Shown piece by piece: positions 19,578 to 48,191 of a stretch of 64,000 nt of DNA. The stretch's first letter is position 1; every line of letters starts with the position of its first letter. A program made the translations under genes and the position numbers. Location: the NCBI GenBank assembly GCA_029238125.1, contig JAQWGQ010000021.1, positions 1-64,000 on the forward strand, in the 5' to 3' direction. The notes under the pieces are model-generated. The model saw only the letters and a list, made by a program, of their open reading frames with translations, searched no databases and had not been told where the DNA came from. This DNA comes from Flavobacteriaceae bacterium (lineage in GTDB: Bacteria > Bacteroidota > Bacteroidia > Flavobacteriales > Flavobacteriaceae).

Positions 19578-22500
19578 CTATTCAACAACGATTCTGTGAA
19601 AAGAGTGTTGTCCTTCTCGATAGACTTTAATCAGGTATAAACCACTTGCGAGTTCATCCACTTGGAGACGATCATCGGAATTAGCTTCTTTAATTTTTAC
19701 ACCGCTTATTGTATAGAGTTCCAATTTGTCAATACTTCCTTGGCTGACCGAAACAAACACCTCTTTGTTAGCAGGGTTGGGATAGATAAACACCTCATTT
19801 GATGAAGACATTTGATCATAACTAAGGGCACAGTCATCCCCAACTTGATAGGTAAAGTTTTTGGTCACTGCCAACCCTGCACCAGCATAGGCAAATTTGA
19901 CGGCATAGTTGATGCTTTCCCCTGTGCTAAATCCACCGATTGTTTTCGTAAAGGTTGTACCACTCACATGATCCATTTGTGTTTCTGATGTTATATTTGG
20001 TCTTTCCCATAGATAAGCGACCACGCCAGTTTTGTCTGTATCAAGGAGTTCGATTGTAAAAGTTACATTGTTTCCTACGGTTTCAAAAGACATCTCATAG
20101 CCAACAGAAAACGAACCCTCAGCGGCTTGGTTGTCAGTAATCACACAGGAAACAACTTCGTTAACATTTATAGCTACCGCTTGTGAAGTTGAGGTGCCCC
20201 CTACGTCATCAGTTGTTTTTGCTGTTATTTGATAGTTTCCAGCTGCAACATTGGTCCAAGAAAATTCAAATGGTTCAGTCGAGTCTTCTCCAATTTTTGT
20301 GTCTCCAGCAAAAAACTCAACCAACGAAACTGTGCCATCTAAATCAGATGCTTGTGCTGTGATGTCTATAGTATCTCCTTCCGCAAAAGAAGCACCGTCG
20401 GTAGGAGAAGTAATCGAAACCGATGGATTTGAATTTCCAGATTCCGATACGATGATTTTTATCTCATCACTAGAAGAATATGTGCCATCAGAAACAGTCA
20501 GCATACACTTATAGACACCAATGGCGAGGTTTGATACTTGAGGTGTAGCACTGGAGGTAGTTGAAAAAGTTAATGCCGTTGGACCGTAAACTTGTGACCA
20601 AGTATAAGTGACGGTTTTTCCTGTGGGCTCATAAGTACTAGAGCCATCTAATGAAACAGGACTGCTAGACAAGGTCGCCGACACATTGGATCCAGCATCC
20701 GCAACAGGGGGGTCAAAACCTAAATCTCCTGTTCGCGTGAATGTCATTCTCCCTAAGTTAAACTCTCCTTGGTTTATTGCAACGCGTAAAATTTGTTCTC
20801 CACCTGTAAGTGGAATCTCCGTTATGGTTTTGGTGGTCCAAGTACCCCAATCATTTGTTGTTGGGAATGAAATCGGATCGCTCACACTTTCTCCGTCTAA
20901 TTTAAACTGCATAGGCCCCCCACCATTGGGATTTCCAGATGCATAGCGAAGTTCTATCGAGTACATTCCTGGATTTTGAACATTGACAGTATATTCTAAC
21001 CATTCTCCAGCAGTAGTCCAACCAATAATCGCGCCTTCGTTGTTATCTAAAACAGTATCTACATATTCACCTGTCCTGGTGTCTCCGTCATTATTTTGAG
21101 AGCTGTCGTAATAGGCAATATTTTGACCAACGCCCGCCTCGTATGAATCGAAATGACCCGGTTCGATTGTTCCGGGTATAACAAGTACAGAGGCATAGGG
21201 AATTTGCTCCCCAACTTGAACAGAAATATTATTGGACAAGCCGAATTCTGCTCCGACATAAACTTTTGCATACATTCCATGAATTCCCAATCCAAGGTTG
21301 GTGGCTTGCGCTTCAAAAGGAGCACTCGTATCAGAACTTATCAATGTTGTTCCGTCATAAAATTCAACCCTGTCGATATTTGTGCTGGTTGTATCATATG
21401 TTAAACGAACACTACCGCCGACATAAGCCTGATCAAAATCTGAACGCAGAGATCCAGAAATATCAAGATCACGACTAGTGGTCAGCTTATTTGCGGATGC
21501 TTCTAACACATAACCATCAGAAAAGCTAACCGAAACGGCATTATTACTGTAGTTGTGAGCTGTGTAAGTGGTCGTTCCAGAATCGTCAGTAAAGGCAACA
21601 GCAAGTGGATGATTGGATGTGATAGATGCATCAACAGGCCCTATGGCATTCATGGCATGTAACCAATGATAGGTTTGCGCATCAGAAATGCCAAATTTTA
21701 AATTTCGATCAGGATAACTATCATACAGATCAATTGCAGCTTGGGCATCGGTAAGTGATAGAAACTTCCAATAAGTATCATGCCACAGATTTGGATTTTC
21801 CTCGTTGCTTAAAATCCCTGTTTTTGAGGCCATTTCTGTCCATAATTCAGCAGCATAGACTTGGTTATGCCCAAGGTACAAAGAGCCGCCATGGATTGGA
21901 TACAACTCAATGCCATAAGATGCGGCGACACCGCCTCCCCAAAATGTCTGAAAATCATAGTCATTCCCCCAGAGTCGTGAAACTACCATTTCGCCATAGT
22001 TTTCAAAAACTCGATCATACATATCAAACCAATAATCTTCTACAGCTGATTGTTCTGTTGTATAGATATAGATTCCTAAATCTCGAATCGCATCGTTGGC
22101 AGTTACACTTCCCCAGTGAATGAGTGAGGTTGCAAATTGCATACTTTCAGAGGTGGATTCCTGATCATTTCCTTGGGGGAAAGTCGCAAATCCATTTGCC
22201 CAGCTATGCCCTGCATAGGGGCTGAAATTTCGCAAAAAGGGGAATAAGGGATCGTTTCGATCAGATGAGGCAGCATCGCGAATGAGTAAATTCACCATTG
22301 CCCCCCAGTCATCTGCCCATCCTGGCTCAAATTGCTCAACAAATGCAGCGGCATGTATAAAATATCCCCAATGAAAGTGGTGATCATTTAAATTTGAATC
22401 TTGTCCATGGCCAGCTGGATATCCCAGAAGGGCTGTCCAGTTATTTTGATAATAAAATAGAAAAGAGATTTCTCCAGTTTCATAAGACAACCAATCTTCC

Positions 22501-30676: not shown

Positions 30677-33600
30677 ATGAAATATAGTTTTTTAATTATT
30701 CTTTTTTCTATTTTTTCTTTTTCTAGTTTCTCACAGCCAGCAAAAGTTATAGTTCAAAGCGACAACGACCAAGTTAAACTTGTTGTCAACGGAGATGATT
30801 TTATGATCAACGGTATGAACTGGGATTACTTTCCTAGAAGTACAAATTACTCCTTTAGTATATGGAATCAATCCGATGATTTTATTAAATCTGCCTTAGA
30901 TGCCGAGATGGGATTGCTCAAAAATATGGGTGTAAACACCATTAGAACCTACACAGGCATTCAGCCACGTTGGGTTCAGTATATCTATGAAAACTATGGC
31001 ATACACACCATTCTCAATCATTCTTTTGGACGTTACGGCTTAACCCTTGACGGCACTTGGGTAGCAGTGACAGATTATAGTAATCCAGCTGTCAAAGAGC
31101 TTTTGATGTCAGAAATAACTGCGTTAGCGGAGGAGTTTAAAAACACGCCAGGACTCTTGATGATATTGTTGGGTAATGAAAACAATTATGGTTTGTTTTG
31201 GGCAGGTGCTGAAACAGAAGACTTTCCAGACGAAGAGGATCAGCGCAGAGCTGTTGGTGAGAACCGCGGACGACCCATGTACAAACTTATGAACCAAGCC
31301 GCAATTGCGATTAAAGAAATTGATGGTTCACGCCCTGTTGCAATATGTAATGGCGATTTGTTATTCTTAGATATAATTGCTGAAGAATGTCAAGACGTTG
31401 ACATTTATGGTACCAATATGTACCGAGGTATTTCCTTTGGAGATACTTTCGAGCGTGTTAAAAATGAATATGGGAAGCCTGTTTTGTTTACTGAGTTTGG
31501 CTCAGATGCCTTCAATGCACTTTCCAACAAAGAAGACCAACAAGCTCAAGCTACTATTATGGTTGGTCAGTGGAAAGAGATTTATGCGAACGCTGCAGGA
31601 CTTGGTAAAACAGGAAACTCCATAGGTGGATGCACATTCCAGTTTAGTGATGGCTGGTGGAAATTCGGACAAACCGATAATCTAGATATTCACGATAACA
31701 ATGCTTCTTGGTCAAACGGGGGCTATCCATTCGATTACAAACCGGGTCAAAACAATATGAATGAAGAGTGGTTTGGGATTTGTGCAAAAGGACCCAACGA
31801 CGCACGAGGGTTGTATGACTTGTATCCAAGAGCTGCATATTATGCGTTGAAAGAAGTGCATACCGTCAACCCGTATGCAGATGGGATAGACGCTGCTTTT
31901 CTCAATAACCATTTCGATAACATCCAAATTATGGATGCGATGCTTCGTGCACGTGGTGACAAAGCGGCTATGGGTGGTGATGAAAAACTTCGAATTAGCA
32001 ATCTCAGGGCAGAATTCACAAGCTTTAATACAGGAGGAGATTTAACAACAACTCCAGAAACTGCGAATTCGGAAGAAACGGTTTATCCCGACCAATTGGG
32101 CTTTGACCATATGCAATCCTATTTTGTTGGTGTTGAAGGAAAACCTGCTCCAGGAATGCGTGCTGAAGTAAATGTAAGCGTATTGGGTCATGTTACAGAT
32201 AATGCGATTGATGAAATTTTCTACGAAAATCGTGGAAGACCACAAAAAGTCGTTTCTAAGTCTGGAGACATTATAACGATTAATGATCCAAACAGGGTTC
32301 AAGTCTACAATGCCGAGTTTGAGTGGAATGCAAAAAACTTTGATTTAAGAGGTTTCTACAGAACTGGACACTACCACTGGGCATATGAAGGAGACGTATT
32401 TAATTTGTATCCAGAGTCTTATTATGGACCAAACTTGGACATCTACAATGGAGAAATTTTAGGAGCAGAGTTGGATGCCAAAGGAGCACTCAGTGGTCTT
32501 AAAGCTGCATTTGGTCCTCAGTTGTGGTGGGGTGCCAATCCTGCAGTCTTGTTAAAGTATGCTAAGGATTTACTCAAATGGAAAGTAACAGGGGTTTATC
32601 ACAGAGACCTTGTTACCAATCTTGAGTATGACGAAAGTGGCAGACGTGTATTGAACGAAAATCAACTTACCAGTGGGGTTATCCCAGCATGGCCAACTGA
32701 GCGAGCTACACTCGCTTTTGAACGAAAAATTGGGAATTTCGGATTTACCTTTGGTGGAATTTGGGGTGGTAGCCCATTAAACGGTAGCTCATTCCAAGTT
32801 TTTGATGAAGAGCTTAATCAGGTATTTGTTGATAAGATTATTGCTGATGACAATTGGGGAGCAAAAGCTAAAATCACCTATCAGAAGGGTAGATTAAATT
32901 GGTATGCACAAGGTTCATATATGGGCTTAGTTGCCAATGGAGGCGCTGATCAGACGAAAACCTTTACTGGCTGGAAACTAAAAGATTCTGGTAGTGGAAA
33001 CATGACCAATGTGCTTTCTGGGTTTACATACCTCATCGGAAACCTGCAAATCGCACCAAACTTTTTATATCAAAAGCCGCTGATTGATCCAATTCCAAAT
33101 GCATTCACTGGGCCAGGAAGATTACGCAATGTAATTGACGATCCTTTTGCAGTGCGTGGCGGAAACAGAGAAATGTCATCTGGAGAAATATTATTCACAT
33201 TTGACCCAACGCCAGGAACTTGGATGTATGAGTGGAACAACGATGTTGTTGAAGATGCAAAATTTGCGATGAGTGCTGGATTTGTATATAAACATCTACC
33301 GACTACGCAAGATGCTCATATCGGATTTTTGGCAAATCGACAGTTCTTTGCCTTTGGGCAAAGTACACTTGCCGAAGATCTTTGGGAAGCGCATACCCGA
33401 ATTGTTTCAAAGCTCAGTCCTGAGCTCGGAATGATTGGAAATTTCTATTACGGAAATGGTCAAGCAAATGGTGATTCAGATCGTACCATTACACGATTTG
33501 GTGGTGACCTCAGAATGGTTTATAAAAACATGAAAATGATATCACATGTAAAAGTGAATGATTGGGGGCCATACGATTACCATCGTGACTTTAACCTCAC

Positions 33601-33844
33601 ATTCCCACTCCAATTGATGGTTGATTTTTCAACCTCGCTTGGAAAACAAGACTGGTTTGGACTTCCCAATACACAAATAGGTATTAGAGGAACGTGGAGA
33701 TCTTTGGATCAATACTCTCCAAGATATGCTCCAGCTGCCACTAGTATAGGAGTTTTAAACCCACCAACACTAGATTTTAGTGGATTCTCTGAAGGATCAG
33801 AATGGGAGATTCGAACCTATGTTCATATCAATATTGGTAAATAA
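30677..33844 (+). CDS. Glycosidase TIM-barrel fused to an outer-membrane beta-barrel
   Basis: This 1055-residue protein has a signal peptide (IFSFSSFSQ), then a clan GH-A-type TIM barrel (about 25-400). NGMNWDYFP opens it, the candidate acid/base is E168 in LLGNENN and the candidate nucleophile E273 in LFTEFGSD, resembling GH2/GH5/GH72-like beta-glycosidases. From about residue 410 to the end the sequence has alternating polar and aromatic strands and short turns (for example NFDLRGFYRTGHYHWAYEGD, EIRTYVHINIG), as in an outer-membrane beta-barrel of 16 or more strands. The last residue is Lys, not the usual Phe. It heads the operon where a SusC transporter would be expected. A surface or periplasmic glycosidase coupled to a pore is the inference; the exact family is unknown to me. 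Confidence 0.75.
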   Translation: MKYSFLIILFSIFSFSSFSQPAKVIVQSDNDQVKLVVNGDDFMINGMNWDYFPRSTNYSFSIWNQSDDFIKSALDAEMGLLKNMGVNTIRTYTGIQPRWVQYIYENYGIHTILNHSFGRYGLTLDGTWVAVTDYSNPAVKELLMSEITALAEEFKNTPGLLMILLGNENNYGLFWAGAETEDFPDEEDQRRAVGENRGRPMYKLMNQAAIAIKEIDGSRPVAICNGDLLFLDIIAEECQDVDIYGTNMYRGISFGDTFERVKNEYGKPVLFTEFGSDAFNALSNKEDQQAQATIMVGQWKEIYANAAGLGKTGNSIGGCTFQFSDGWWKFGQTDNLDIHDNNASWSNGGYPFDYKPGQNNMNEEWFGICAKGPNDARGLYDLYPRAAYYALKEVHTVNPYADGIDAAFLNNHFDNIQIMDAMLRARGDKAAMGGDEKLRISNLRAEFTSFNTGGDLTTTPETANSEETVYPDQLGFDHMQSYFVGVEGKPAPGMRAEVNVSVLGHVTDNAIDEIFYENRGRPQKVVSKSGDIITINDPNRVQVYNAEFEWNAKNFDLRGFYRTGHYHWAYEGDVFNLYPESYYGPNLDIYNGEILGAELDAKGALSGLKAAFGPQLWWGANPAVLLKYAKDLLKWKVTGVYHRDLVTNLEYDESGRRVLNENQLTSGVIPAWPTERATLAFERKIGNFGFTFGGIWGGSPLNGSSFQVFDEELNQVFVDKIIADDNWGAKAKITYQKGRLNWYAQGSYMGLVANGGADQTKTFTGWKLKDSGSGNMTNVLSGFTYLIGNLQIAPNFLYQKPLIDPIPNAFTGPGRLRNVIDDPFAVRGGNREMSSGEILFTFDPTPGTWMYEWNNDVVEDAKFAMSAGFVYKHLPTTQDAHIGFLANRQFFAFGQSTLAEDLWEAHTRIVSKLSPELGMIGNFYYGNGQANGDSDRTITRFGGDLRMVYKNMKMISHVKVNDWGPYDYHRDFNLTFPLQLMVDFSTSLGKQDWFGLPNTQIGIRGTWRSLDQYSPRYAPAATSIGVLNPPTLDFSGFSEGSEWEIRTYVHINIGK

Positions 33845-35327: not shown

Positions 35328-36197
35328 TTGTATTATTTTAAGTTGATCTTTTGTCAGCTGGTACTAGCTGTATTGTTTGTTTGCTGTAAGAAAGAAGGGG
35401 TGTACAACCCTCAAGATGACCTTATAGATGGGAAGACCTTGGTATGGTCAGATGAGTTTGATGATGACGGTACGACTTATATGTCTGGAGTTGACAACCC
35501 AATTGATGATTCAAAATGGTTTCACCAAACCAAGTTACCAAATGGCTGGGGTTGGTATAATAATGAACTCCAACATTATACGAATCGTATTGACAATTCC
35601 TATGTTTCAGACGGCACATTGAAGATTGTTGCAAAAAAAGAAGTTTTTTCAGACCAAGGTCAAACAAAGGACTACACCTCGGCAAGGTTAAACTCAAAGT
35701 TTGCCTTTACCTATGGGGTTGTAGAAATAAGAGCAAAGCTGCCTACAGGGGTTGGCACTTGGCCTGCCATTTGGACTCTTGGGAAAAATATCAACGAAAA
35801 CGGAGCTTACTGGCAACAACAAGGACACGGCTCTGTTTCATGGCCAGCTTGTGGGGAGATTGACATTATGGAACATTGGGGCAGCAATCAAAACTTTATC
35901 CAAAGTGCCATGCATACCCCCTCATCTCATGGTGGTACGGTAAATAAAGGTGGTAGAACGATATCAACGGTTTCTTCGAAGTTCCATGTGTATAAGCTCG
36001 AATGGACACCAGAAAAAATGACTTTTTCAGTCGATGATTATGTGCACTACATTTATAACCCACCAGTAAAAGATGCAAGTACATGGCCGTTTAACTCAGA
36101 TCAGTACTTATTACTAAATGTTGCCATACAGTCATCCATCGCATCGGGCTTTACATCTTCAACCATGGAAATTGATTATATCAGAGTATATCAATAA
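35328..36197 (+). CDS. GH16 laminarinase lipoprotein, probable TTG start
   Basis: This 289-residue enzyme consists of a short export signal (LIFCQLVLAVLFVCCKK) and one GH16 domain with GEIDIMEHWG (E177, D179, E182). No ATG fits upstream of the GH16 domain in this frame. The TTG at 35328, preceded by TAAGG, gives a complete signal, though the residue before the Cys (Val) is a poor lipobox match. Its catalytic domain is about 87% identical by hand count to that of the T9SS GH16 at 25872, so the same enzyme is placed twice with different anchors: this one lipid-anchored, the other exported by T9SS. It lies 39 bp after the lipoprotein gene in the operon. Confidence 0.88.
   Translation: MYYFKLIFCQLVLAVLFVCCKKEGVYNPQDDLIDGKTLVWSDEFDDDGTTYMSGVDNPIDDSKWFHQTKLPNGWGWYNNELQHYTNRIDNSYVSDGTLKIVAKKEVFSDQGQTKDYTSARLNSKFAFTYGVVEIRAKLPTGVGTWPAIWTLGKNINENGAYWQQQGHGSVSWPACGEIDIMEHWGSNQNFIQSAMHTPSSHGGTVNKGGRTISTVSSKFHVYKLEWTPEKMTFSVDDYVHYIYNPPVKDASTWPFNSDQYLLLNVAIQSSIASGFTSSTMEIDYIRVYQ
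35440..36194 (+). repeat. GH16 duplication, copy 2
   Basis: This is the partner of 26554-27308: same length, same orientation, no net indel. The similarity covers only the catalytic domain and stops where the domains flanking copy 1 begin, so a domain-sized duplication or gene conversion is likely. Confidence 0.85.
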
Positions 36198-36205
36198 AAC
36201 AAAGA

Positions 36206-37741
36206 ATGACAAAAAAAACACTTTTTATTGCTTTTGTTGTTTCTCTGGGTGGTTTTCTATTTGGGTTTGATGCAGGCATTATTTCTGGTGTGATGTCTTA
36301 TGTTGGGCCTCAGTTTGATCTTAATGATGCACAGACAGGATGGGTTGTAAGTTCACCTTCTTTTGCGGCCATGATAGCCATGCTAGTTGCCGGTCGTCTT
36401 AGTGATCGTATCGGCCGAAAAAAAATATTACTATTAGTAGCATTCCTATATGCTCTTTCTGCGATCACTTCTGCCTATTCCATTTCGTATGAAACCTTGT
36501 ATATCGCTCGTATGGTTGGGGGATTGGCTTTTGGTGCAGCACTCATTTTAGCGCCAACCTATATCGCCGAAATTTCAACGGCCGAAAATCGAGGAAAACT
36601 CGTTTCCATTCAGCAGCTCAATATCGTTTTGGGCTTTTTTGCTGCTTTTTTGAGCAATTATTATTTCAACCAATACAACGTTTCGGGAAGTGAAGCTCTT
36701 TCCAATGAAAATGTTTGGAGATGGATGTTGGGGGTAGAGTTTTTCCCCGCCATCTTTTATTTTGGACTCCTATTTTTTGTGCCAAAAAGTCCACGTTGGC
36801 TCTATACTCAAAATCGCGCAGACCAAGCCAAGCATGTCTTGGAGCGTATCCATGGATCAGAGCAAGCTGAACTCGAAATCAAATCGATAGAAAAAAATAT
36901 CGAAGATAGTGAGGTTTCGAAAGCAGTTTCTATTCGAGAACTCTTTGCGCCAGCTTTACGATTCATCATGATTGTTGGAATCACCTTGGGAATTTTACAA
37001 CAAGTTACGGGGATCAATGCAATTTATTTTTATGCCACTTCCATATTTAAACAAACGGGAATCGGTACAGATGCTGCTTTTTCCTCAGGAGTTTTGCTGA
37101 GTTTTACCACAGTTGTGTTTACGCTAGTTGCCATCTACTTGATTGATCGTATGGGAAGACGACCGCTACTGCTCGTTGGCATGTCTGGGATTGCGATAAG
37201 TTTACTGTTGTGTGCCTACAGTTTTAACCAAGCAACCTATCAACTCTCAGCTGCTGAAATCAACTCTTTTGAAAATATTGATACCTATAAGCTAGCAGAA
37301 TTTCAAGATGTTACCTATGAAAGTGATGTTATCTTTAAGAATGACATCAAAGCCGCTATCGGAAACCAAGTCTATGCGCTCAATGAAGGAGCCATCTTGG
37401 AAGCTGCAATCGACATGAATGCAATCCTTGTTCTCATGGGGATTCTCGGATTTATCGCCTGCTTTGCGTTTTCACTTGGGCCAGTGATGTGGGTTATGCT
37501 CTCCGAAATTTTTCCAAATCGCTTTCGTGGTTTAGCAATTGGGGTGATTGGCTTTATCAACTCTTTTTCCAGTTGGTTGATTCAACAAATTTTCCCTTGG
37601 GAAATTTCAAACTTGGGAAGCGCATTGACTTTCTTTATCTATGGGCTAATTGCTACAGTAGGGGTGTTGTTGTTTATCAAAATCCTTCCTGAAACAAAAG
37701 GAAAGTCACTTGAAGAAATTGAAACTGAATTGATAAAATAA
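36206..37741 (+). CDS. Sugar porter family MFS transporter
   Basis: This 511-residue inner-membrane carrier with 12 predicted helices has the sugar-porter signatures LGGFLFGFDAGIISGV (helix 1), GRLSDRIGRKK (loop 2-3), VPKSPRWLY, QQVTGINAIYFYA (helix 7), DRMGRRPLLL and LPETKGKSLEEIE (C-terminus). It resembles XylE/GLUT-type proton symporters. A polar insert of about 60 residues (about 345-405) replaces the usual short loop between helices 9 and 10. It would import glucose or a small gluco-oligosaccharide released in the periplasm. It is in the middle of the glucan operon, 8 bp after GH16. Confidence 0.93.
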   Translation: MTKKTLFIAFVVSLGGFLFGFDAGIISGVMSYVGPQFDLNDAQTGWVVSSPSFAAMIAMLVAGRLSDRIGRKKILLLVAFLYALSAITSAYSISYETLYIARMVGGLAFGAALILAPTYIAEISTAENRGKLVSIQQLNIVLGFFAAFLSNYYFNQYNVSGSEALSNENVWRWMLGVEFFPAIFYFGLLFFVPKSPRWLYTQNRADQAKHVLERIHGSEQAELEIKSIEKNIEDSEVSKAVSIRELFAPALRFIMIVGITLGILQQVTGINAIYFYATSIFKQTGIGTDAAFSSGVLLSFTTVVFTLVAIYLIDRMGRRPLLLVGMSGIAISLLLCAYSFNQATYQLSAAEINSFENIDTYKLAEFQDVTYESDVIFKNDIKAAIGNQVYALNEGAILEAAIDMNAILVLMGILGFIACFAFSLGPVMWVMLSEIFPNRFRGLAIGVIGFINSFSSWLIQQIFPWEISNLGSALTFFIYGLIATVGVLLFIKILPETKGKSLEEIETELIK

Positions 37742-37774: not shown

Positions 37775-40700
37775 ATGTATATCGGACAAAATTTAAGACA
37801 GACAAATCCACTTGAACCAGAGGGTGAGCTGATAAAAATAGAAGGAGATTGGTTTTTTAAAATTAGCAACGTTGACAATATGCCACCATTTTTTATGAGT
37901 ATTGTCAGCGACGCAAATCACTGGATGTTTATCGGAAGTAATGGTGGTCTTTCTGCGGGCAGAAAAGATTGTAACCAAGCACTGTTTCCCTACTACACAG
38001 TCGATAAAATTTTAGAAACCTCAGAAGCCACAGGCAGTAAAACGATACTGCGTATTGGCCAAGACGGAAAATCCTTTCTATGGGAGCCCTTTTCAGTACT
38101 CACGGACTCGGTCTATGATACTGAAACAAACTTGTATAAAAGCGAGTATGGAAATGTTGTGATTTTTGAGCAAATCAATCACGACTTAGGACTTTCGTTC
38201 AAATACCAATGGAGTTCGAGCAATCGATTTGGATTTGTCCGCCGCGCAACATTGAGCAATCTAACCGAAACCAAAAAAATTGTTCATGTTTTGGATGGAA
38301 TCCAAAATCTAGTCCCTTATGGGGTTGAAGCCGATTTACAAAACAGCAAGAGTAACCTTGTCGACGCTTATAAGAAAAGTGAATTGGAAAAAGAATACGC
38401 CTTGGGGATCTATGCTCTGAGCGCGATTATTGTTGACCGAGCAGAGCCAAGTGAGGCGCTTAAAGCTACAACCGTTTGGTCTTCGGGGTTGAGTAGCCCA
38501 ACTTACTTATTGTCATCCTTCCAACTCGAAGCATTTCGCCGGGGACAGAGCCCCACAGAAGAGTGGGAAAACAAAGGCGAAAAAGGAGCGTATTTTTTGG
38601 TTGACACCCTAACTCTTGAAGGGAATCAAGCCGAAGACTGGCATATTGTGGCTGACGTAAACCAGTCAATGATTGGCATTCGGTCTCTAACGCAAGCCAT
38701 GTCAAAGGGCGATATCATAGATCAAGTTCATGAAGATATCCAGGAAGGTACAAAAAAGCTCATTCAACTGTGCGCAGCAGCGGACGGTGTACAGCTTACT
38801 AATGATAAGCGAACCATCATGCGCCACTTCTCTAACACCATGTTTAATATCATGCGTGGAGGAATTTTTGATACCAATTATCAAATCGAAAAAGCGGATT
38901 TCCTTCCCTATCTCCAACAAGCGAACAAAGTGGAATTCGAAAAATTTCAAGATCAACTCAATCAATGGGATGACCTGTTTTCACTCGAGAAATTGGCAAC
39001 CAATATCAGCTCAATTCCATCCGTTCCAATCAAACGATTGGCCACAGAATACTTGCCACTCAAATTTAGTCGTCGTCATGGCGATCCGAGTCGTCCCTGG
39101 AACTGGTTTTCGATCAATACCCAAAACGAAAATGATGGATCAAAAATTCTAGATTACCAAGGCAACTGGCGCGATATTTTCCAAAACTGGGAAGCGCTTG
39201 CACATGCCTATCCATCTTTTATAGAAGGGATGATTTTTAGATTTCTCAATGCATCAACCTTTGACGGGTACAACCCATATCGAGTTACCAAAGATGGGTT
39301 TGATTGGGAAATTATCGAGCCACACGATCCATGGTCTTATATTGGGTATTGGGGAGATCATCAAATCATTTATTTGTTGAAGTTTTTGGAATTTATCCAA
39401 AAACATTTCCCTGGAAAACTAGTAAATAGTTTGGCGGAAAACCATTTTGTCTACGCCCATGTTCCTTATATCATCAAATCGTATAAAGACATCGTCAAAA
39501 ACCCAAAGGACACGATACTTTTTGACGAGGCGTTACACAATCAAATTGATCAACAAAAAGAAACTCTGGGTGCTGATGGTGCTTTGCTTAAAACGCCGAG
39601 TGGCGAGGTGTATCACGTCAACATGCTCGAAAAACTGTTGGCAACCATACTTGCAAAAATGTCAAATTTTGTTCCTGAAGCAGGAATTTGGCTCAACACC
39701 CAGCGACCCGAGTGGAACGATGCCAACAATGCGCTAGTTGGAAACGGTACATCTATGGTGACTTTATACTATATGCGTCGTTTCTTTTCGTTTTTAGATA
39801 ATTTGATCGATAGTGCTGACTTTGCATCTTCTGCAATTTCAGAAGAGTTGTATCGATTTTTTAATGAAATTTTCAACCAGCTCAATAAACACGAAAGTTT
39901 ACTTGCCAATCCAATGAATCAGCAAGATCGACAGTCAGTTGTTGATGCACTAGGGCAAGCGGGGAGTAGCTATCGAAATCAGATTTACAATAATGGGTTT
40001 TCTTCAAAGACAACAGATATCAGTACAGCCGATCTCAAAGCGTTTATTCGTGTTAGCTTGTCCTTTATCGACCATTCTATTGATGCAAACAAACGGGAAG
40101 ATGGTTTGTACCATGCTTACAATCTGATCACATTTGAAGATCAAGGTGGCGTTTCTATTTCCTATCTCGACGAAATGCTTGAAGGGCAAGTTGCCGTTTT
40201 AAGTTCGGGCTATTTAAGCCCAGTACAGGTTGACGAGGTGCTTAATCAAATGCGCAAAAGCAAGCTTTACAGAGCGGATCAAAACAGTTATATTTTGTAC
40301 CCCAACAAAGACCTACCTCGTTTTTTTGAGAAAAACAATGTGCCAGCAGAAGCCGTTGAAAGTTCAACTCTACTGAAAACATTACTAGATGACAACTACA
40401 AGCAGGTCATTCAAAAGGACTCTGCAGGGGTCTATCATTTCAACGGCAATTTTACAAACGCGGACAGCTTAAAAAATGCGTTGTCTGAGTTGCCAGCTCG
40501 TTATGACAATTTGGTCTCAAATGAAGAAGAGGGTCTGTTGCATGTGTTTGAAGACTTGTTTGATCACAAATCCTTTACGGGTCGATCAGGAACATTTTTT
40601 GGCTTTGAAGGGCTAGGATCGATTTACTGGCATATGGTTTCCAAATTGGCGTTGGCTGTTCAAGAGGTTCTTTGGGAATCGATTCACAAGCAGTCTGACT

Positions 40701-41215
40701 CCAAAGTCTCTGAATCGCTTCGAAAACATTACTATGCGGTTGTTGATGGAATAGGGGCGCATAAAACCCCAAAAGCATATGGTGCATTTCCGACAGACCC
40801 ATATTCTCATACCCCTGCTGGTCGAGGCGCACAACAGCCCGGAATGACAGGTCAGGTCAAAGAAGATATTTTATGTCGTTGGGGAGAGTTTGGGGTGTAT
40901 GCACAAGGAGGCAAGCTCTTTTTTGACCCCTCAATGGTTCGAACTGAGGAGTACTTAGAAGATCAAAAGGAATTTGAATTCTACGATGTGGAAAACAAAA
41001 AGCAAACGCTCACCATTCCAAAGCACGCACTCTGCTTTACCTATTGCCAAGTACCGATTGTTTATCACAGCCAATCCAACGCCAATGGAATTGAACTTGT
41101 TCGCTCCAATGGGGAACAGAAAAAGATTGACCAACATCACCTCGATGAGGTTGATGCAGCCAATCTCTTCAGTCGAAATGGAAAAATCTCTCAAATTCAT
41201 ATTTATTTTTCATGA
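37775..41215 (+). CDS. GH149 beta-1,3-oligoglucan phosphorylase
   Basis: This 1146-residue protein lacks a signal peptide and so is cytosolic. Size and sequence fit GH149 (relatives of GH94 phosphorylases), with RRHGDPSRPWNWFSI, YQGNWRDIFQNWEAL, STFDGYNPYRVTKDG and DPWSYIGYWGDHQI. D528 in the WGDHQ segment is a candidate catalytic acid by analogy with GH94. Family members use phosphate to release glucose 1-phosphate from beta-1,3-glucan chains, saving ATP over hydrolysis. Its place between two carriers and five glycosidases of the same linkage supports the call. The next gene starts within its stop codon (ATGA at 41212), so expression is coupled. Confidence 0.85.
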   Translation: MYIGQNLRQTNPLEPEGELIKIEGDWFFKISNVDNMPPFFMSIVSDANHWMFIGSNGGLSAGRKDCNQALFPYYTVDKILETSEATGSKTILRIGQDGKSFLWEPFSVLTDSVYDTETNLYKSEYGNVVIFEQINHDLGLSFKYQWSSSNRFGFVRRATLSNLTETKKIVHVLDGIQNLVPYGVEADLQNSKSNLVDAYKKSELEKEYALGIYALSAIIVDRAEPSEALKATTVWSSGLSSPTYLLSSFQLEAFRRGQSPTEEWENKGEKGAYFLVDTLTLEGNQAEDWHIVADVNQSMIGIRSLTQAMSKGDIIDQVHEDIQEGTKKLIQLCAAADGVQLTNDKRTIMRHFSNTMFNIMRGGIFDTNYQIEKADFLPYLQQANKVEFEKFQDQLNQWDDLFSLEKLATNISSIPSVPIKRLATEYLPLKFSRRHGDPSRPWNWFSINTQNENDGSKILDYQGNWRDIFQNWEALAHAYPSFIEGMIFRFLNASTFDGYNPYRVTKDGFDWEIIEPHDPWSYIGYWGDHQIIYLLKFLEFIQKHFPGKLVNSLAENHFVYAHVPYIIKSYKDIVKNPKDTILFDEALHNQIDQQKETLGADGALLKTPSGEVYHVNMLEKLLATILAKMSNFVPEAGIWLNTQRPEWNDANNALVGNGTSMVTLYYMRRFFSFLDNLIDSADFASSAISEELYRFFNEIFNQLNKHESLLANPMNQQDRQSVVDALGQAGSSYRNQIYNNGFSSKTTDISTADLKAFIRVSLSFIDHSIDANKREDGLYHAYNLITFEDQGGVSISYLDEMLEGQVAVLSSGYLSPVQVDEVLNQMRKSKLYRADQNSYILYPNKDLPRFFEKNNVPAEAVESSTLLKTLLDDNYKQVIQKDSAGVYHFNGNFTNADSLKNALSELPARYDNLVSNEEEGLLHVFEDLFDHKSFTGRSGTFFGFEGLGSIYWHMVSKLALAVQEVLWESIHKQSDSKVSESLRKHYYAVVDGIGAHKTPKAYGAFPTDPYSHTPAGRGAQQPGMTGQVKEDILCRWGEFGVYAQGGKLFFDPSMVRTEEYLEDQKEFEFYDVENKKQTLTIPKHALCFTYCQVPIVYHSQSNANGIELVRSNGEQKKIDQHHLDEVDAANLFSRNGKISQIHIYFS

Positions 41216-42477
41216 GTCAATTTCCAACATTTCGACTTATTGCTACGCTGATGACTAGTGCTTCTATTCTTATGACGAGTTGTTCGAATTCACCAGAGGA
41301 TAGTCCAACAGCACAGGATATTTTAGGAAATCCAAACTATCAAGCCATTTCTTATGGAGGTTATCGCACAACATCTCGTGATACCGTACCGAGTGTTGAT
41401 CAAATCAAGGATGATATGCGAATCTTATCTGCGATGGATGTCAAAATATTGCGCACTTACAACACAGAATTGGCAGAATTGCCAAATCTACTACAAGCGA
41501 TTACAGAGCTGAAACAAGAGGACTCATCATTTGAGATGTATTTGATGGTTGGCGCTTGGATCAATTGTAAAGATGCTTTTACAGACAATCCAGATCATAC
41601 GCAAGAAGATGAGGCATACAATGAATCCGAAGTACAGCGGGCCGTTCAATACGCACAACAATATCCAGAAATCATTAAAATAATTGCGGTTGGAAATGAA
41701 GCAATGGTTCACTGGGCTTCTAGCTATTTTGTACCACCCTCTGTGATCTTAAAGTGGGTCATCTATCTACAAGACCTCAAAACCAAGGGGGATCTTCCCA
41801 GTGATTTGTGGATCACGAGCTCTGACGATTTTGCTTCATGGGGAGGTGCTTCTAACAATTATCACACAGAGGATTTGAATCGTTTAATTGGCGCAGTCGA
41901 TTTTATTTCGATGCATACGTATGCCTTTCACAATTCTCATTACAACCCCGATTACTGGTATAACCGAGATCCGAGTTTGAGTGAAATTGAGCAAATTGAT
42001 GCAGCGATGCAGCGCGCAGGGGAGTTTGCAGCTGGTCAATACAACGACGTGAAGCAGTATATGTTGAGTTTGGGAATCGACAAACCAATTCATATTGGAG
42101 AGACTGGTTGGGCAACTGTCTCAAACGGCTACTATGGAGCAGAGGGCTCACAAGCAGCCGACGAGTATAAGCAAGCAATCTACTACAACCTCATGCGCCA
42201 ATGGACTTCACAGAATAACATCTCATGCTTTTTCTTTGAAGCTTTTGATGAAATATGGAAAGACGCTACAAATAGCCAAGGATCTGAAAATCATTTTGGG
42301 CTTTTTACTGTTGATGGAAAAGCAAAGTATGCCTTGTGGAATTCAGTTGACAAAGGAATTTTTTCTGGATTGACACGAAATGGAAATACGATTACAAAAA
42401 CTTTTAATGGGAGTAAGGAAAATCTGCTAGCTTTTGTCTTACCTCCTGTAACACGTAAAACCGATATAAACAAATAG
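41212..42477 (+). CDS. GH17 beta-1,3-glucanase lipoprotein
   Basis: This 421-residue GH17 enzyme has a lipoprotein signal (ILMTSC) and a TIM barrel with acid/base E163 in AVGNEAM and nucleophile E297 in IGETGW, plus FFEAFDEIWKD and ENHFGLF near the end. It is probably periplasmic or surface-anchored and cuts or trims beta-1,3-gluco-oligosaccharides; some bacterial GH17 enzymes are glucanosyltransferases, which sequence alone does not exclude. It is the secreted counterpart of the signal-less GH17 at 47256, sharing the EAFDExWK and HWGLF-type ending. The start overlaps the GH149 stop by four bases. Confidence 0.9.
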   Translation: MSQFPTFRLIATLMTSASILMTSCSNSPEDSPTAQDILGNPNYQAISYGGYRTTSRDTVPSVDQIKDDMRILSAMDVKILRTYNTELAELPNLLQAITELKQEDSSFEMYLMVGAWINCKDAFTDNPDHTQEDEAYNESEVQRAVQYAQQYPEIIKIIAVGNEAMVHWASSYFVPPSVILKWVIYLQDLKTKGDLPSDLWITSSDDFASWGGASNNYHTEDLNRLIGAVDFISMHTYAFHNSHYNPDYWYNRDPSLSEIEQIDAAMQRAGEFAAGQYNDVKQYMLSLGIDKPIHIGETGWATVSNGYYGAEGSQAADEYKQAIYYNLMRQWTSQNNISCFFFEAFDEIWKDATNSQGSENHFGLFTVDGKAKYALWNSVDKGIFSGLTRNGNTITKTFNGSKENLLAFVLPPVTRKTDINK

Positions 42478-42480
42478 ATT

Positions 42481-43962
42481 ATGTATCATAAAACTTTTTT
42501 CTTAATGATTCTTTTTACAGCGATATCATGTAATTCAATAAACTCCGAAGTACAAGTTTATGAGACCTCTGAAAGCGGCAATCAATTAAGCGTGCAAACA
42601 ACATTCGAACATGATTCAGAGGCGTCAACAATCGTGATTAATTCAAAAAAAGAACTTCAAACCATTACAGGTTTCGGCGGAGCCTTTACCGAGTCTTCGG
42701 CTTATTTACTCAATAAGATGAGTGAAGAGAAACGCAATGAAATTTTAGCAGCTTATTTTGCTAAAGATGGTGCTCGTTACTCTCTTACGCGTACCCACAT
42801 GAATTCATGTGACTTCTCATTAAATAATTACTCCTATACTCCTGTGGCAGGAGATAAAAATTTGGATCACTTTTCGATAGATGAGGACAAAGATGATATT
42901 ATTCCCATGATAAAGGATGCGATGGCGATATCAGAGGATGGGTTTAAACTTTTTTCTTCGCCTTGGACTGCATCTCCATGGATGAAAGACAATAACAGTT
43001 GGGTAGGAGGGAAGCTATTGCCAGAGTATTACGACACTTGGGCTTTGTTCTTTTCAAAATATGTTGATGCCTACAAGGCAGAAGGAATTGATATTTGGGG
43101 ATTTACTGTTGAAAATGAACCACACGGAAATGGTGAGAATTGGGAAAGCATGCATTATTCTCCTGAAGAAATGACGCACTTCGTCCAAAACTTTTTGGGC
43201 CCAAAGCTCGAAGCTGATGGTAAAGGGCACCTTAAAATTTTAGGATATGACCAAAATCGCGAAGGATTGCGTGAGTGGGTAGATATCATGTACAAAGACA
43301 AAGCTTCAAGTAAGTATTACGATGGAACAGCAATTCATTGGTATGAAAGCACCTACGACTATTTCCCAGAGGAATTGCAGTATGCACACCAAAAGGCCCC
43401 AGAAAAATATCTCATTCAAACCGAAGCTTGCGTAGATGCCGAAGTACCTGTTTGGAAAGACGACAAATGGTACTGGAAAAAAGAAGCAACGGATTGGGGA
43501 TACGACTGGAGAGAAGAAGAAAAAAAATATTTACATCCCAAATACGCTCCTGCCAATAGATATGCTCGTGACATTATCGGATGCCTAAACAATTGGGTCG
43601 ATGGTTGGGTAGATTGGAATATGGTTCTAGATGCCAAAGGAGGACCGAATTGGGCAAATAACTGGTGTATTGCCCCTGTAATTGTAGACCCAGAAAAGGA
43701 TGAGGTTTACTACACACCGCTCTATTACATTATGGCTCATTTTAGTAAGTTTATTCGACCAAAGGCGAAAGTAATTGAAGCCAAAAAATCAGATGAGGAA
43801 CTTATGGTAGCTGCTGCCAAAAATCCAGACGGAAGCATAGCAGTTGTGGTATTTAATGAAGGAACCACGTCAAAAAATTTCGAACTAACTCATAATGATT
43901 TAACCAAAAACATAAGTATAAGCCCGCAAGCAATACAAACCATAATGATCCACAGCCACTAA
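42481..43962 (+). CDS. GH30 beta-glucosidase/beta-1,6-glucanase lipoprotein
   Basis: This 493-residue GH30 enzyme has a lipoprotein signal (FTAISC), then GFGGAFTESSAYLLNKM, SLTRTHMNSCDFSL, SSPWTASPWMKDN, acid/base E213 in FTVENEPHGN and nucleophile E315 in IQTEACVDA, and a C-terminal beta-sandwich (LMVAAAKNPDGSIAVVVFNEGT). The sequence fits GH30 subfamily 1 or 3. In marine flavobacterial laminarin loci GH30 enzymes remove the beta-1,6-linked glucose branches, which fits its place here beside GH17 and GH16. It lies 3 bp after GH17 in the operon. Confidence 0.92.
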   Translation: MYHKTFFLMILFTAISCNSINSEVQVYETSESGNQLSVQTTFEHDSEASTIVINSKKELQTITGFGGAFTESSAYLLNKMSEEKRNEILAAYFAKDGARYSLTRTHMNSCDFSLNNYSYTPVAGDKNLDHFSIDEDKDDIIPMIKDAMAISEDGFKLFSSPWTASPWMKDNNSWVGGKLLPEYYDTWALFFSKYVDAYKAEGIDIWGFTVENEPHGNGENWESMHYSPEEMTHFVQNFLGPKLEADGKGHLKILGYDQNREGLREWVDIMYKDKASSKYYDGTAIHWYESTYDYFPEELQYAHQKAPEKYLIQTEACVDAEVPVWKDDKWYWKKEATDWGYDWREEEKKYLHPKYAPANRYARDIIGCLNNWVDGWVDWNMVLDAKGGPNWANNWCIAPVIVDPEKDEVYYTPLYYIMAHFSKFIRPKAKVIEAKKSDEELMVAAAKNPDGSIAVVVFNEGTTSKNFELTHNDLTKNISISPQAIQTIMIHSH

Positions 43963-43972
43963 AAATAATATC

Positions 43973-46321
43973 ATGGACAACCTCTCCTTAAAAAACAGAG
44001 TCCCGTTAGGTCAAAAAATTGCATTTGGCATCGGCATGTTTGCCAATCAAATGTTTCCCGCTATTCTTGGGATATTTATGGTTGTCTTAGTTCAAGATTT
44101 GGGTTTTCCAGGGTGGATGTGGTCTCTTATCTATTTTTTTCCTAGAATATTTGACTCTATTACCGACCCTGTAATGGGTTTTATATCTGATAATACAAAA
44201 TCGAAATGGGGGCGTCGTAAACAGTATGTTTTGATAGGCGGTATTATTATGGGAGTTGCCTACATTTTTATGTGGCAGCTATTTAAGGAGAATACATTAC
44301 AATTTAATTTTTGGTATTTCTTTATATGGTCCATTGTTTTTTATTTAGGACTTACTTTTTTTAGTGTCCCCTATGTAGCTATGGGGTATGAAATGAGCGA
44401 TGATTTTCACGAACGTACAAATATCATGGCTATTGCGCAATGGATTGGACAATGGGCATGGGTGATTGCACCGTGGTTTTGGGTCATAATGTATGACCCC
44501 GAGTGGTTTCCTTCAGCAGATGTAGCAGCAAGAGAACTCGCAATATGGGTAGCAATCCCTTGTGCAATTTGTGCTATTGTTCCAGCAATATTCATAAAGA
44601 GCAAATCTACCCTTAATGAAGATTATGAGCCATTGAGTATTGCTAATATTGGCGCTAGTTTTGGAAAAATTTATGACAGCTTTATAGAAGCATTTAAAAT
44701 TAAAGAATTTAGAAAATTATGCGGTGCTACATTTTTGGTATACAACGCCTTTATGGCGGTATCATCCCTAACATTCTTTGTAATTGTATATAAACTTTTT
44801 AACGGCGATACCGAAGCTACGGGGATTTGGGTGTCACTGTTTGGATGCCTTGGTGCTTTGGGAACTACTTTTGTCGTAATCCCTGTTGTAGCGTGGTTAT
44901 CCAAAAAAACGGGAAAGAAAAAAGCATTTATGGTTTCCCAAGGCATCTCAATTCTTGGGTATGTGATGCTGTACTTTTTATTTATACCTGGAAAGCCTTG
45001 GATGTACATTATCGCTCTTCCATTTTTTTCATTTGGCATTGGAAGCTTATTTACCATTATGATGTCTATGACTGCAGATGTAATCGACGTTGATGAGCTA
45101 AACTCAGGTAAAAGAAGAGAAGGTGTTTTTGGAGCGATTTATTGGTGGATGGTTAAAGTAGGTTTTGCCATAGCAGGGGCTCTGAGCGGTGTGATTATTG
45201 CTGCGGTGGGCTTTAACCCAGACTTAACCACGGTAGAGCAACAATCGGCAGTAGATGGGCTGCATGCTTTCTTTTGTTTTTTTCCAACACTTGGAACATT
45301 GGGTGCGATGTGGATTATGCGTAACTATCGTATAGATGAGACTCGCGCCAATGAAATAAGAGCACTATTAAAATCTCGGAAAGGAGAATCTTTAAGCCTT
45401 ACTTATGAAAAAATGCAAGGCAAATTATCTTCACTAACTGACAAAAGATTTACAAAAAGACTACACTCAGATGTGGATTTTTCTACTTGTTCTGAATCAA
45501 AACAAAAAACATTATTTGACAATATATTGCATAAGGGTCTACATGGTATTTGTTTTAGCCCGTATCGCGAAAACCAAGATATACATGACATCTTAGCTGA
45601 AAGCCAAATTGAAGAACGTATGGAAATAGTTGCTCCTTACACAAAGTGGGTGCGTTCGTTTTCATGTGCTGGAGGGAATGAACATATTCCCAAAGTTGCT
45701 AGAGCTAAAGGCTTAAAAACCATGGTAGGCGCTTGGATTGGTAACGATAAAAAAGAAAATGACAAGGAAATAAAATCGCTTATTCGTCTTGCCAAAAAAG
45801 GATTGGTAGATATTGCCGTAGTGGGCAACGAAACCTTAATGCGTAATGAAGTAAGTGAAGAAAACATTCTTGATTATTTAGCCGAGGTTAAAAAAGCCCT
45901 TCCAGGAGTTAAAGTAGGTTACGTTGATGCATACTATCAATTTATTCAACGCCCAAAACTAGTGGAAGCATGTGATGTTATTCTAATTAATTGCTATCCC
46001 TTCTGGGAAGGTTGTAAAATAGAATTTGCATCGTCAAGTTTACGTGAAATGTATCAAGCGACAAAAAATATTTCCAACGGAAAGCCTGTCATGATAACAG
46101 AAACAGGGTGGCCAAATCAAGGGGAGAGTGTTGGTAAATCACAACCGTCAGCACAAAATGCGATGGACTATTTTGTCAATGCTCATTTATGGGCGGCACT
46201 AGAGAAAGTGCCTATGTTCTACTTTTCCTCGTTTGATGAGTCTTGGAAAGTACACCATGAAGGAGATGTAGGTTCGGGATGGGGAATTTGGGATAAAAAC
46301 GAAAACCGTAAATACAAATAA
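43973..46321 (+). CDS. GPH-type MFS sugar carrier fused to a C-terminal GH17 domain
   Basis: This 782-residue protein is one continuous frame. Residues 1-455 form a 12-helix glycoside-pentoside-hexuronide (MelB/LacS-like) carrier with FPRIFDSITDPVMGFISDNTKSKWGRRKQYVLIGG and GKRREGVFGAIYWWMVKVG. After a basic linker (about 455-490) a full GH17 domain follows (about 490-782) with acid/base E620 in VVGNETLM and nucleophile E710 in ITETGWP and FYFSSFDESWK. GPH carriers have cytoplasmic termini, so the glycosidase would face the cytosol and act on sugar as it enters. The GH17 part is about half identical to the separate GH17 that follows 2 bp later. I know of no characterised enzyme with this architecture. 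Confidence 0.88.
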   Translation: MDNLSLKNRVPLGQKIAFGIGMFANQMFPAILGIFMVVLVQDLGFPGWMWSLIYFFPRIFDSITDPVMGFISDNTKSKWGRRKQYVLIGGIIMGVAYIFMWQLFKENTLQFNFWYFFIWSIVFYLGLTFFSVPYVAMGYEMSDDFHERTNIMAIAQWIGQWAWVIAPWFWVIMYDPEWFPSADVAARELAIWVAIPCAICAIVPAIFIKSKSTLNEDYEPLSIANIGASFGKIYDSFIEAFKIKEFRKLCGATFLVYNAFMAVSSLTFFVIVYKLFNGDTEATGIWVSLFGCLGALGTTFVVIPVVAWLSKKTGKKKAFMVSQGISILGYVMLYFLFIPGKPWMYIIALPFFSFGIGSLFTIMMSMTADVIDVDELNSGKRREGVFGAIYWWMVKVGFAIAGALSGVIIAAVGFNPDLTTVEQQSAVDGLHAFFCFFPTLGTLGAMWIMRNYRIDETRANEIRALLKSRKGESLSLTYEKMQGKLSSLTDKRFTKRLHSDVDFSTCSESKQKTLFDNILHKGLHGICFSPYRENQDIHDILAESQIEERMEIVAPYTKWVRSFSCAGGNEHIPKVARAKGLKTMVGAWIGNDKKENDKEIKSLIRLAKKGLVDIAVVGNETLMRNEVSEENILDYLAEVKKALPGVKVGYVDAYYQFIQRPKLVEACDVILINCYPFWEGCKIEFASSSLREMYQATKNISNGKPVMITETGWPNQGESVGKSQPSAQNAMDYFVNAHLWAALEKVPMFYFSSFDESWKVHHEGDVGSGWGIWDKNENRKYK

Positions 46322-46323
46322 TA

Positions 46324-47241
46324 ATGTCATACAGAGAAGGAGTTGACTTTAAGCTCGAAGAACTCGAACATCAATCTTATGAGGGACTTGTCTTGCCTGA
46401 GCACACAACAGATGATTTAAACATCATTTGGAGAAACACATTAAAATCAGGAATGCATGGGATTTGTTTTAGTCTTTATGAAGACGGCCAAGAGCCAGGA
46501 GATACGATAACAGCAACGCAAGTAGAGCGTCGTGTAAAGATTTTGAAACCGTTTACGAAGTGGATACGTTCTTTTTCTTGTCTTGAAGGAAACGAACACA
46601 TCCCTCGTATTGCTAAAAAACACGGACTCAAAACAATGGTAGGTGCTTGGCTTGGAGATGACGATAAGAAAAACAAACAAGAAATAAAAGCTCTAATTGA
46701 ACTTGCTAACGAGGGCAATGTAGATATTGCGGCTGTAGGTAACGAGGTACTTTACAGAAATGACTTAAGTCTTGAAGAACTAATCGGTTACATGAAAGAG
46801 GTTAGAGCTGCAATTCCAGCACATATTCCTATTGGTTATGTAGATGCTTATTATGAATTTTCTTCTCACCCAGAATTAGTAGAACATTCCGACGTTATTT
46901 TGTCTAACTGCTATCCCTTTTGGGAAGGCTGTCCTGAAGAATATGCATTGCCCCATATGCAAAGTATGTATGGTCAGGCTATGGATGCAGCCAAAGGAAA
47001 AAAAGTAATCATTACGGAAACGGGATGGCCAAGCAAAGGAGAAAACCTGAATGGAGCGGTACCTTCAGAAGTTCATGCCATGAAATATTTTATTAACACC
47101 CAGGCTTGGGCAAAGGATTCAAATCTAGAAGTGTTCTACTTTTCTTCTTTTGATGAATCTTGGAAAGTGGGCCCTGAAGGAGATGTAGGAGCTTATTGGG
47201 GCTTGTGGGATAAAGATGAAAACATTAAGTTTAATATTTAA
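46324..47241 (+). CDS. GH17 enzyme without signal peptide
   Basis: This 305-residue protein is a bare GH17 TIM barrel with no export signal: acid/base E141 in AVGNEVLY, nucleophile E232 in ITETGWPSKG and FYFSSFDESWK. It begins 2 bp after the stop of the MFS-GH17 fusion and is the close paralogue of that fused domain (GYVDAYYEF and CYPFWEGC in both). It is expected to act in the cytosol on imported beta-1,3-gluco-oligosaccharides, or to transfer glucosyl units between them before GH149 phosphorolysis. The tandem arrangement suggests that duplication of this gene gave rise to the fusion, or the reverse. Confidence 0.88.
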   Translation: MSYREGVDFKLEELEHQSYEGLVLPEHTTDDLNIIWRNTLKSGMHGICFSLYEDGQEPGDTITATQVERRVKILKPFTKWIRSFSCLEGNEHIPRIAKKHGLKTMVGAWLGDDDKKNKQEIKALIELANEGNVDIAAVGNEVLYRNDLSLEELIGYMKEVRAAIPAHIPIGYVDAYYEFSSHPELVEHSDVILSNCYPFWEGCPEEYALPHMQSMYGQAMDAAKGKKVIITETGWPSKGENLNGAVPSEVHAMKYFINTQAWAKDSNLEVFYFSSFDESWKVGPEGDVGAYWGLWDKDENIKFNI

Positions 47242-47255
47242 TATTTATTGATCCA

Positions 47256-48191
47256 ATGGATTATACCACATTGCTTTCCATTCCGAAAGGGGCTGCGGTT
47301 TGTTACTCAGGATTTCGTGAGGGGCAACGACCTGGGGATGTCTATCCGAACTATGAGCAAGTCAAGGAAGATTTGTTAATTGTACAGCGTCATTGGCGCT
47401 ATATTCGTTTGTATAGTTGTGATCAACACGCCCATACCGTACTCGAAGTGATTCGCAAAGAACAGCTCCCGATTCAAGTCATGCTGGGTGCCTATCTCGA
47501 TGGAGAACAGTCCAATCCCAATTGTCCATGGGGAGGCGAATATAGCGATGCGGAAATCGATTCCCACAAGAAAAATAACAAAGCCGAAATCGAAACCTTG
47601 ATTGCATGGGCAAACGCCTATGGAGATATCATTATCGCCTTAGCAGTTGGCAACGAATCCTGTGTTGACTGGTCAGGAAATATGGTTCCTGTCGATCAGA
47701 TGATTGCTTATGTAAGACAAGTAAAGGCATCAACCAATCAAGCGGTTACCTTTTGTGAAAATTATGTCCCTTGGCTTGATAAACTTGCGCCCCTTGTTGA
47801 AGAACTAGATTTTATCTCCATACACACATACCCCTTGTGGGAACACAAATCCATTGAGGAGGCCATAGCGCATACTAAGGAAAATTATTATCAAGTTTCT
47901 CAAAAATATCCAGATAAAGTTGTTGTTATCACAGAAGCGGGTTGGGCAACAGACGCCAATGGGCGTGGTTTTCCTAAAGCCCATGCAAATGTATTTTTTC
48001 AAAAAATGTACTACGATTCCTTGTGCCAATGGACAGCAAACAAGAACATCCTCACCTTTGTTTTTGAAGCTTTTGACGAACCCTGGAAAGGGTCTCCAGA
48101 TCCGTTTGAACCCGAAAAACACTGGGGTCTGTTTTATGAAAACCGGAATCCAAAAATGGCAATTGCTAATCCACCTGGTTATAAGCGGTAA
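47256..48191 (+). CDS. GH17 enzyme without signal peptide, second type
   Basis: This 311-residue GH17 protein begins MDYTTLLSIPKGAAVCYSG and has no signal peptide. Acid/base is E134 in AVGNES, nucleophile E227 in VITEAGW, and the C-terminus has FVFEAFDEPWKGS and EKHWGLF. It is closer in sequence to the GH17 lipoprotein at 41212 than to the two GH17 domains just upstream, so the operon holds two GH17 types each in two settings. It is the last gene of the operon. Cytosolic beta-1,3-oligosaccharide hydrolysis or transglycosylation is the likely role. Confidence 0.87.
   Translation: MDYTTLLSIPKGAAVCYSGFREGQRPGDVYPNYEQVKEDLLIVQRHWRYIRLYSCDQHAHTVLEVIRKEQLPIQVMLGAYLDGEQSNPNCPWGGEYSDAEIDSHKKNNKAEIETLIAWANAYGDIIIALAVGNESCVDWSGNMVPVDQMIAYVRQVKASTNQAVTFCENYVPWLDKLAPLVEELDFISIHTYPLWEHKSIEEAIAHTKENYYQVSQKYPDKVVVITEAGWATDANGRGFPKAHANVFFQKMYYDSLCQWTANKNILTFVFEAFDEPWKGSPDPFEPEKHWGLFYENRNPKMAIANPPGYKR

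Follow-up and report, generated by a model that had tools for sequence, protein, structure and literature searches.

Why a sugar carrier and a glycoside hydrolase should be joined in one polypeptide, and on which side of the membrane such an enzyme would act, are questions raised by a gene in a 64,000-nucleotide stretch of DNA (the window) from a Flavobacteriaceae bacterium. We favor, with a probability of about 0.83, the explanation that its product carries out the inner-membrane step in laminarin utilization by a variant-1 locus, with the carrier domain importing sugar and a tethered GH17 domain acting on it in the cytosol. What the analysis shows is the order of the domains, their conservation, a bias in topology, the catalytic and cation-site residues, and the operon; the substrate of the carrier, symport, and any direct hand-over to the enzyme are inferred. 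Laminarin, the algal storage sugar, ranks among the major carbon stores of the sea, and the fusion would sit at the inner-membrane step of its use by bloom bacteria.

The fusion gene and its domains

The gene and its parts are as follows.

43973..46321, +: MFS(GPH)-GH17 fusion gene of the FbGH17B type, 782 aa (open reading frame, Pfam, phmmer, AlphaFold2 model, PMC6246565)
44024..45340, +: GPH/MFS_2 cation symporter domain, residues 18 to 456, 12 transmembrane (TM) helices (Pfam, AlphaFold2 model, MelB alignment)
45341..45502, +: linker, with a conserved C-tail helix (residues 456 to 471) and then a low-confidence part of variable length to about residue 510
45503..46318, +: GH17 domain, residues ~511 to 782 (Pfam, conservation, Foldseek; residue roles from PMC11005184)

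The gene is a single uninterrupted forward-strand frame from ATG to TAA. Its N-terminal part matches MFS_2 (PF13347) at residues 18 to 456, spanning positions 2 to 427 of the 427-position profile (2.8e-65; 221 bits against a curated cut-off of 27), and its C-terminal part gives a partial match to Glyco_hydro_17 (PF00332) at residues 706 to 782 (5.9e-9; 36.4 bits against a curated cut-off of 28.2), which was widened to residues 548 to 772 by a phmmer match to a solved structure, the Rhizomucor miehei β-1,3-glucanosyltransferase 4WTP. An AlphaFold2 model of the protein displays 12 TM helices, the C-tail helix, and a TIM barrel, and Foldseek searches with it retrieved MFSD2A, MelB, and the R. miehei GH17 structure 4WTR (TMt, 0.86). 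The (β/α)8 barrel bears the glutamate pair characteristic of the family, namely, the predicted acid/base E620 in a VGNE motif and the predicted nucleophile E710 in a TETGW motif, both of which are kept in every homologue having that column. The original prediction of a 12-helix carrier continuing in one frame into a GH17 domain with catalytic glutamates at these two positions is thus borne out. The junction, which it had singled out for checking, lies in the same open frame in many independent assemblies, and a frameshift or assembly error there is thereby ruled out. As the model has a pTM of only 0.58 and a low-confidence linker, it does not fix the placement of the carrier exit relative to the active site.

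Proteins of this type have been described before. In Unfried et al. 2018 (PMC6246565), FORMB_24740/FbGH17B of Formosa sp. Hel1_33_131 is reported to carry a 12-helix MFS carrier at the N terminus and a GH17 domain at the C terminus and to have exo-β-1,3-glucosidase activity, releasing glucose from the products of FbGH17A. The same paper gives the gene order as FORMB_24720 (GH17A), 24730 (GH30), and 24740 (MFS-GH17B), reports induction by laminarin, calls the fusion “common among marine Flavobacteriia,” and proposes a coupling of hydrolysis and product uptake. Although FbGH17B (AOR29491.1) comes from another species and the likeness is drawn from its published description, it shares with the window protein the order of the domains, the 12 TM helices, and a methionine at the acceptor tyrosine position, and its gene likewise stands third after GH17A and GH30 (41212, 42481, and 43973 in the window). 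With this frame and gene order, and with a GH149 gene in the locus (6HQ6, 1426 bits), the window gene is an orthologue of FbGH17B, a protein type that has already been published; the exo-β-1,3-glucosidase activity, assayed for FbGH17B only, is putative for the window protein. Hence, the finding mainly confirms MFS-GH17 in one more uncultured flavobacterium. What is new is a residue rule at position 623 that separates fused from free GH17 domains, with exceptions, and an evolutionary frame of one old fused/free split with probable repeated domain loss; together these make the role of the fusion testable.

A laminarin locus around the fusion gene

The neighboring genes that bear on the function of the fusion are the following.

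35328..36197, +: GH16, lipoprotein-like laminarinase candidate (open reading frame, Pfam)
36206..37741, +: second sugar carrier, Sugar_tr family (Pfam)
37775..41215, +: GH149 β-1,3-oligoglucan phosphorylase without a signal peptide (6HQ6/6HQ8, 1426 bits, residues 18 to 1143)
41212..42477, +: secreted/lipoprotein-like GH17, FbGH17A/MlGH17A-like endo-laminarinase (open reading frame, Pfam)
42481..43962, +: GH30, lipoprotein-like β-1,6-glucosidase candidate (open reading frame, Pfam; activity by family)
46324..47241, +: free GH17 paralogue, 305 aa, no signal peptide, acceptor tyrosine kept, MlGH17B-like (open reading frame, Pfam)
47256..48191, +: third cytosolic-type GH17 (GH17c), 311 aa, more distant (open reading frame, Pfam, tree)

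The upstream series runs through GH81, a CBM protein, GH16, a Y_Y_Y/LuxR-type regulator, a GH2-like protein, GH16, the sugar porter, and GH149, and two more GH17 genes follow the fusion gene, so that this locus holds all four GH17s found in the genome, which is 82% complete. Signal peptides were judged by eye, without a predictor; the N termini look lipoprotein-like in GH16, the secreted GH17, and GH30, and no obvious signal peptide is seen in GH149, the free GH17, or GH17c. The family activity assigned to GH30 is that given in PMC13188888 and PMC6246565. The order GH16, GH149, secreted GH17, GH30, MFS-GH17, and free GH17 is common to most related loci, with GH30 absent from several Cyclobacteriaceae and related loci. 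The laminari-oligosaccharide context originally proposed is therefore backed by the GH16, GH149, GH17, and GH30 neighbors. No SusC/SusD pair was seen in the laminarin locus (window positions 19578 to 48191) of this 82% complete genome, in which the sole SusD_RagB match is on another contig (C1:13912-14277).

Two further observations concern the genes around the fusion. A third signal-less GH17 of the GH17c type also follows the fused/free pair in L019, L024, L026, L029, L035, L037, L045, L063, L075, L077, and L091; the window copy has a valine at the acceptor position discussed below. The 1055-aa protein encoded at 30677-33844 (+) has an N-terminal GH2-type TIM barrel (PF02836, residues 34 to 287) followed by ~600 residues without a Pfam match, which may form an outer-membrane barrel (9 amphipathic strands against 6.5 +/- 2.2 in shuffles, a weak excess). 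It is matched, mostly at full length and with 64 to 69% identity, in 33 of 149 same-family genomes, and in several genomes the homologue lies ~13 to 15 kb from the carrier.

The carrier and the membrane face of the enzyme

Twelve helices place both termini of the carrier on one side of the membrane. In the window protein, 25 lysines and arginines fall on the terminal side and 2 on the opposite side, and a bias of the same sign is seen in 48/48 aligned fused proteins, the loops in each case being taken from the predicted model. MelB, whose termini are cytosolic, aligns with residues 12 to 463 of the fusion protein, i.e., over the full length of the carrier. The MelB cation-site residues D55 and D59, located via the mutant chains D55C (8FQ9) and D59C (7L16), correspond to D61 and D65, which are invariant in the 48 fused proteins. 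Taken together, the helix number, the charge bias, the MelB alignment, and the two invariant aspartates make a cation symporter with its enzyme in the cytosol the best reading of the predicted topology, as the original prediction had supposed from the family. The resemblance to MelB (4M64, 7L16, 8T60) covers the GPH fold, the full-length alignment, and both cation-site aspartates; MelB differs in having no enzyme domain and a different sugar. The NCBIfam model TIGR00792 (gph) covers the carrier at profile positions 1 to 436 of 437 but scores 172.8 bits, below its curated cut-off of 231.35, which places the carrier in a divergent part of the GPH family and makes “MFS_2, GPH-like” the safe label. 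A GH17 domain on the periplasmic face, producing glucose that the carrier then imports, is a very improbable arrangement: the coupling proposed in PMC6246565, whose available part does not state the membrane face of the enzyme, could be read in this way, and a second carrier of the sugar-porter type is also in the locus, but the predicted charge distribution over the 12 helices and the cytosolic termini of MelB speak against it, as do the lack of a visible signal peptide on the free homologue and the report of MlGH17B without one.

The acceptor residue and a possible division of labor

Three residues past the acid/base E620, position 623 is equivalent to Tyr102 of RmBgt17A from R. miehei and to Tyr136 of MlGH17B from Muricauda lutaonensis; the substitution Tyr102Ala abolished transglycosylation by RmBgt17A, and FbGH17B was noted to have a methionine there (PMC11005184). 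RmBgt17A (4WTP/4WTR), a fungal transglycosylase without a carrier, shares with the fused domain the TIM barrel, the catalytic glutamate pair, and the equivalents of W157 and E158, kept here as W678 and E679, but the tyrosine of its Tyr-Trp-Glu acceptor site, Y102, is replaced by M623. The free neighbor at 46324-47241 keeps the tyrosine. In the first set, the 66 fused domains have leucine (39), methionine (25), or glutamine (2) at this position and never tyrosine, which is found in 57 of the 64 free neighbors; the GH17s of unfused loci have it in 17 of 17 cases. In a second set (L096-L106), leucine or methionine occurs in 10 of 11 fused domains and tyrosine in 9 of 10 free neighbors, the exceptions being fused L098 with tyrosine and free L096 with leucine. 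As the divergent fused L091 also has tyrosine, and some free copies have leucine, an absolute rule that fused domains lack the tyrosine is ruled out. Moreover, the fused domains are essentially one lineage, so the counts reflect mostly one or a few long-kept changes rather than 66 independent ones.

Because the acceptor residue differs, the comparison with two characterized enzymes suggests that the fused and free GH17s may do different jobs, as hydrolase and transglycosylase, respectively. Of the enzymes described, MlGH17B, a transglycosylase of the same GH17 subgroup (PMC11005184), comes nearest in kind to the free neighbor; it differs from the fused domain in being unfused, in its activity, and in its tyrosine. 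That the fused domain is itself mainly a transglycosylase like MlGH17B appears unlikely to us. The two are not far apart, with 53% identity between MlGH17B and the FbGH17B module, whose possible undetected transferase activity was raised by the authors of PMC11005184, and the best solved structure is that of a transglycosylase. On the other hand, FbGH17B released glucose in the assays of PMC6246565, and none of the 66 fused domains in the first set retains the acceptor tyrosine, even though the tryptophan and glutamate are kept.

The most useful idea to arise is that the two copies form a conserved cytosolic pair, in which the tethered copy without the acceptor tyrosine would act as an exo-hydrolase at the carrier exit and the free copy with it would disproportionate short laminari-oligosaccharides, yielding chains usable by the GH149 phosphorylase; we advance this tentatively, at a little under even odds. 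Maltodextrin metabolism has such a set in MalZ/MalQ/MalP, of which the fused/free GH17 pair together with GH149 would, if this holds, be the β-1,3-glucan counterpart.

A model for the inner-membrane step

On our preferred reading, the secreted or lipoprotein GH16, GH17A, and GH30 would shorten and debranch laminarin outside the cell and in the periplasm, and the MelB-like carrier domain would bring short laminari-oligosaccharides into the cytosol together with a cation. The tethered GH17 on the cytosolic face would then clip glucose off the incoming oligosaccharides, the free GH17 would probably act as a transglycosylase that redistributes chains, and chains would be turned into glucose-1-phosphate by the GH149 phosphorylase. 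We are not aware of any transport assay for carriers of this family. A putative hand-over of substrate from the carrier to the active site is plausible and resembles the coupling put forward in PMC6246565.

Distribution of the fusion

A search of genome_contigs gave 522 confirmed matches, and among the best 80, picked by their match to the full-length fusion and therefore over-representing it, 65 loci have the fusion and 15 have separate carrier and GH17 genes. Since 65/80 of these share the fusion, with 41 to 83% identity in the aligned set, it can be put down neither to misassembly nor to a recent chance event. Proteins with this domain order are widespread, and the original view that carrier-hydrolase fusions are rare did not hold up as a mark of novelty, this fusion having been published and its GH17 assayed (PMC6246565) and having been described again in PMC10108472. 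The hosts include Flavobacteriaceae, Saprospiraceae, Cyclobacteriaceae, Flammeovirgaceae, and Chitinophagaceae, and GH17-MFS fusions were reported in 2023 from most of the expressed variant-1 laminarin PULs, including those of SAR92, Luminiphilus, and SAR86, some of these fusions being gammaproteobacterial (PMC10108472). In Muricauda, the carrier and GH17 were reported as separate genes (PMC13188888). An even sample of the same family gave a full-length match in ~13 of 149 genomes, with the fusion checked at the open reading frame level for the window and L091 only, and ~14 of 395 genomes of the phylum gave one besides the window, 11 of them checked at that level. The open frames of ~1025 to 1121 aa from the family search are ruled out as extra fusions, as their DNA shows separate carrier and GH17 open reading frames in L085-L090 and L092-L095; L091 is the only true fusion among them (822 aa, 39% carrier identity). 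In plasmid records, the two best matches, from Emticicia and Vibrio fortis, are unfused carriers only.

Evolution of the fused and free copies

In a careful GH17 tree, a starred branch (96/97) divides all 45 unfused domains from all the fused ones; depending on where the root is placed, the fused set may or may not be a clade, and a quick tree was also examined for this split. The 2-bp gap between the fusion stop and the free paralogue is as originally described, but the starred branch makes the downstream gene an old paralogue, anciently separate from the fused domain, and rules out a recent tandem duplication. In the careful carrier tree (a quick one was also made), fused and unfused forms are interspersed, with 9 changes, 6 of them forced by starred branches, and a constraint that keeps all unfused carriers in a single clade is rejected (p-AU, 2.4e-71). 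Unfused loci are not simply split fusion genes, as their GH17s fall with the free copies in the trees and all 17 have the tyrosine. Given a single fused lineage and scattered unfused carriers, the simplest reading of these sequences is that the GH17 domain has probably been lost repeatedly from carriers; a similar pattern would also result if carrier genes had been exchanged or recombination had taken place within the operon.

Such losses among closely related carriers suggest that transport may be independent of the GH17 domain, and they bear on an alternative to which we grant a considerable chance, rather short of even, namely, that the tether has no channeling role and only sets the expression ratio and membrane location, the domain being dispensable for transport. 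The interspersion of the two forms is what this would lead one to expect, as is the ending of unfused carriers just past the conserved C-tail helix. Against it, every homologue keeps both catalytic glutamates and several Bacteroidota families have retained the fusion, which indicates that selection of some kind maintains the joined form.

Some loci depart from the common pattern. L021, L033, L041, L086, L087, and L092 have a second GPH-like carrier (44 to 46% identical) next to another free GH17 and a pair of secreted GH17s, which together look like a duplicated transport module. The fusion at L091:3988-6453 (G069), in which a divergent carrier (39% identical to that of the window) is joined to a GH17 domain with the acceptor tyrosine, either arose by a separate fusion event or branched off early.
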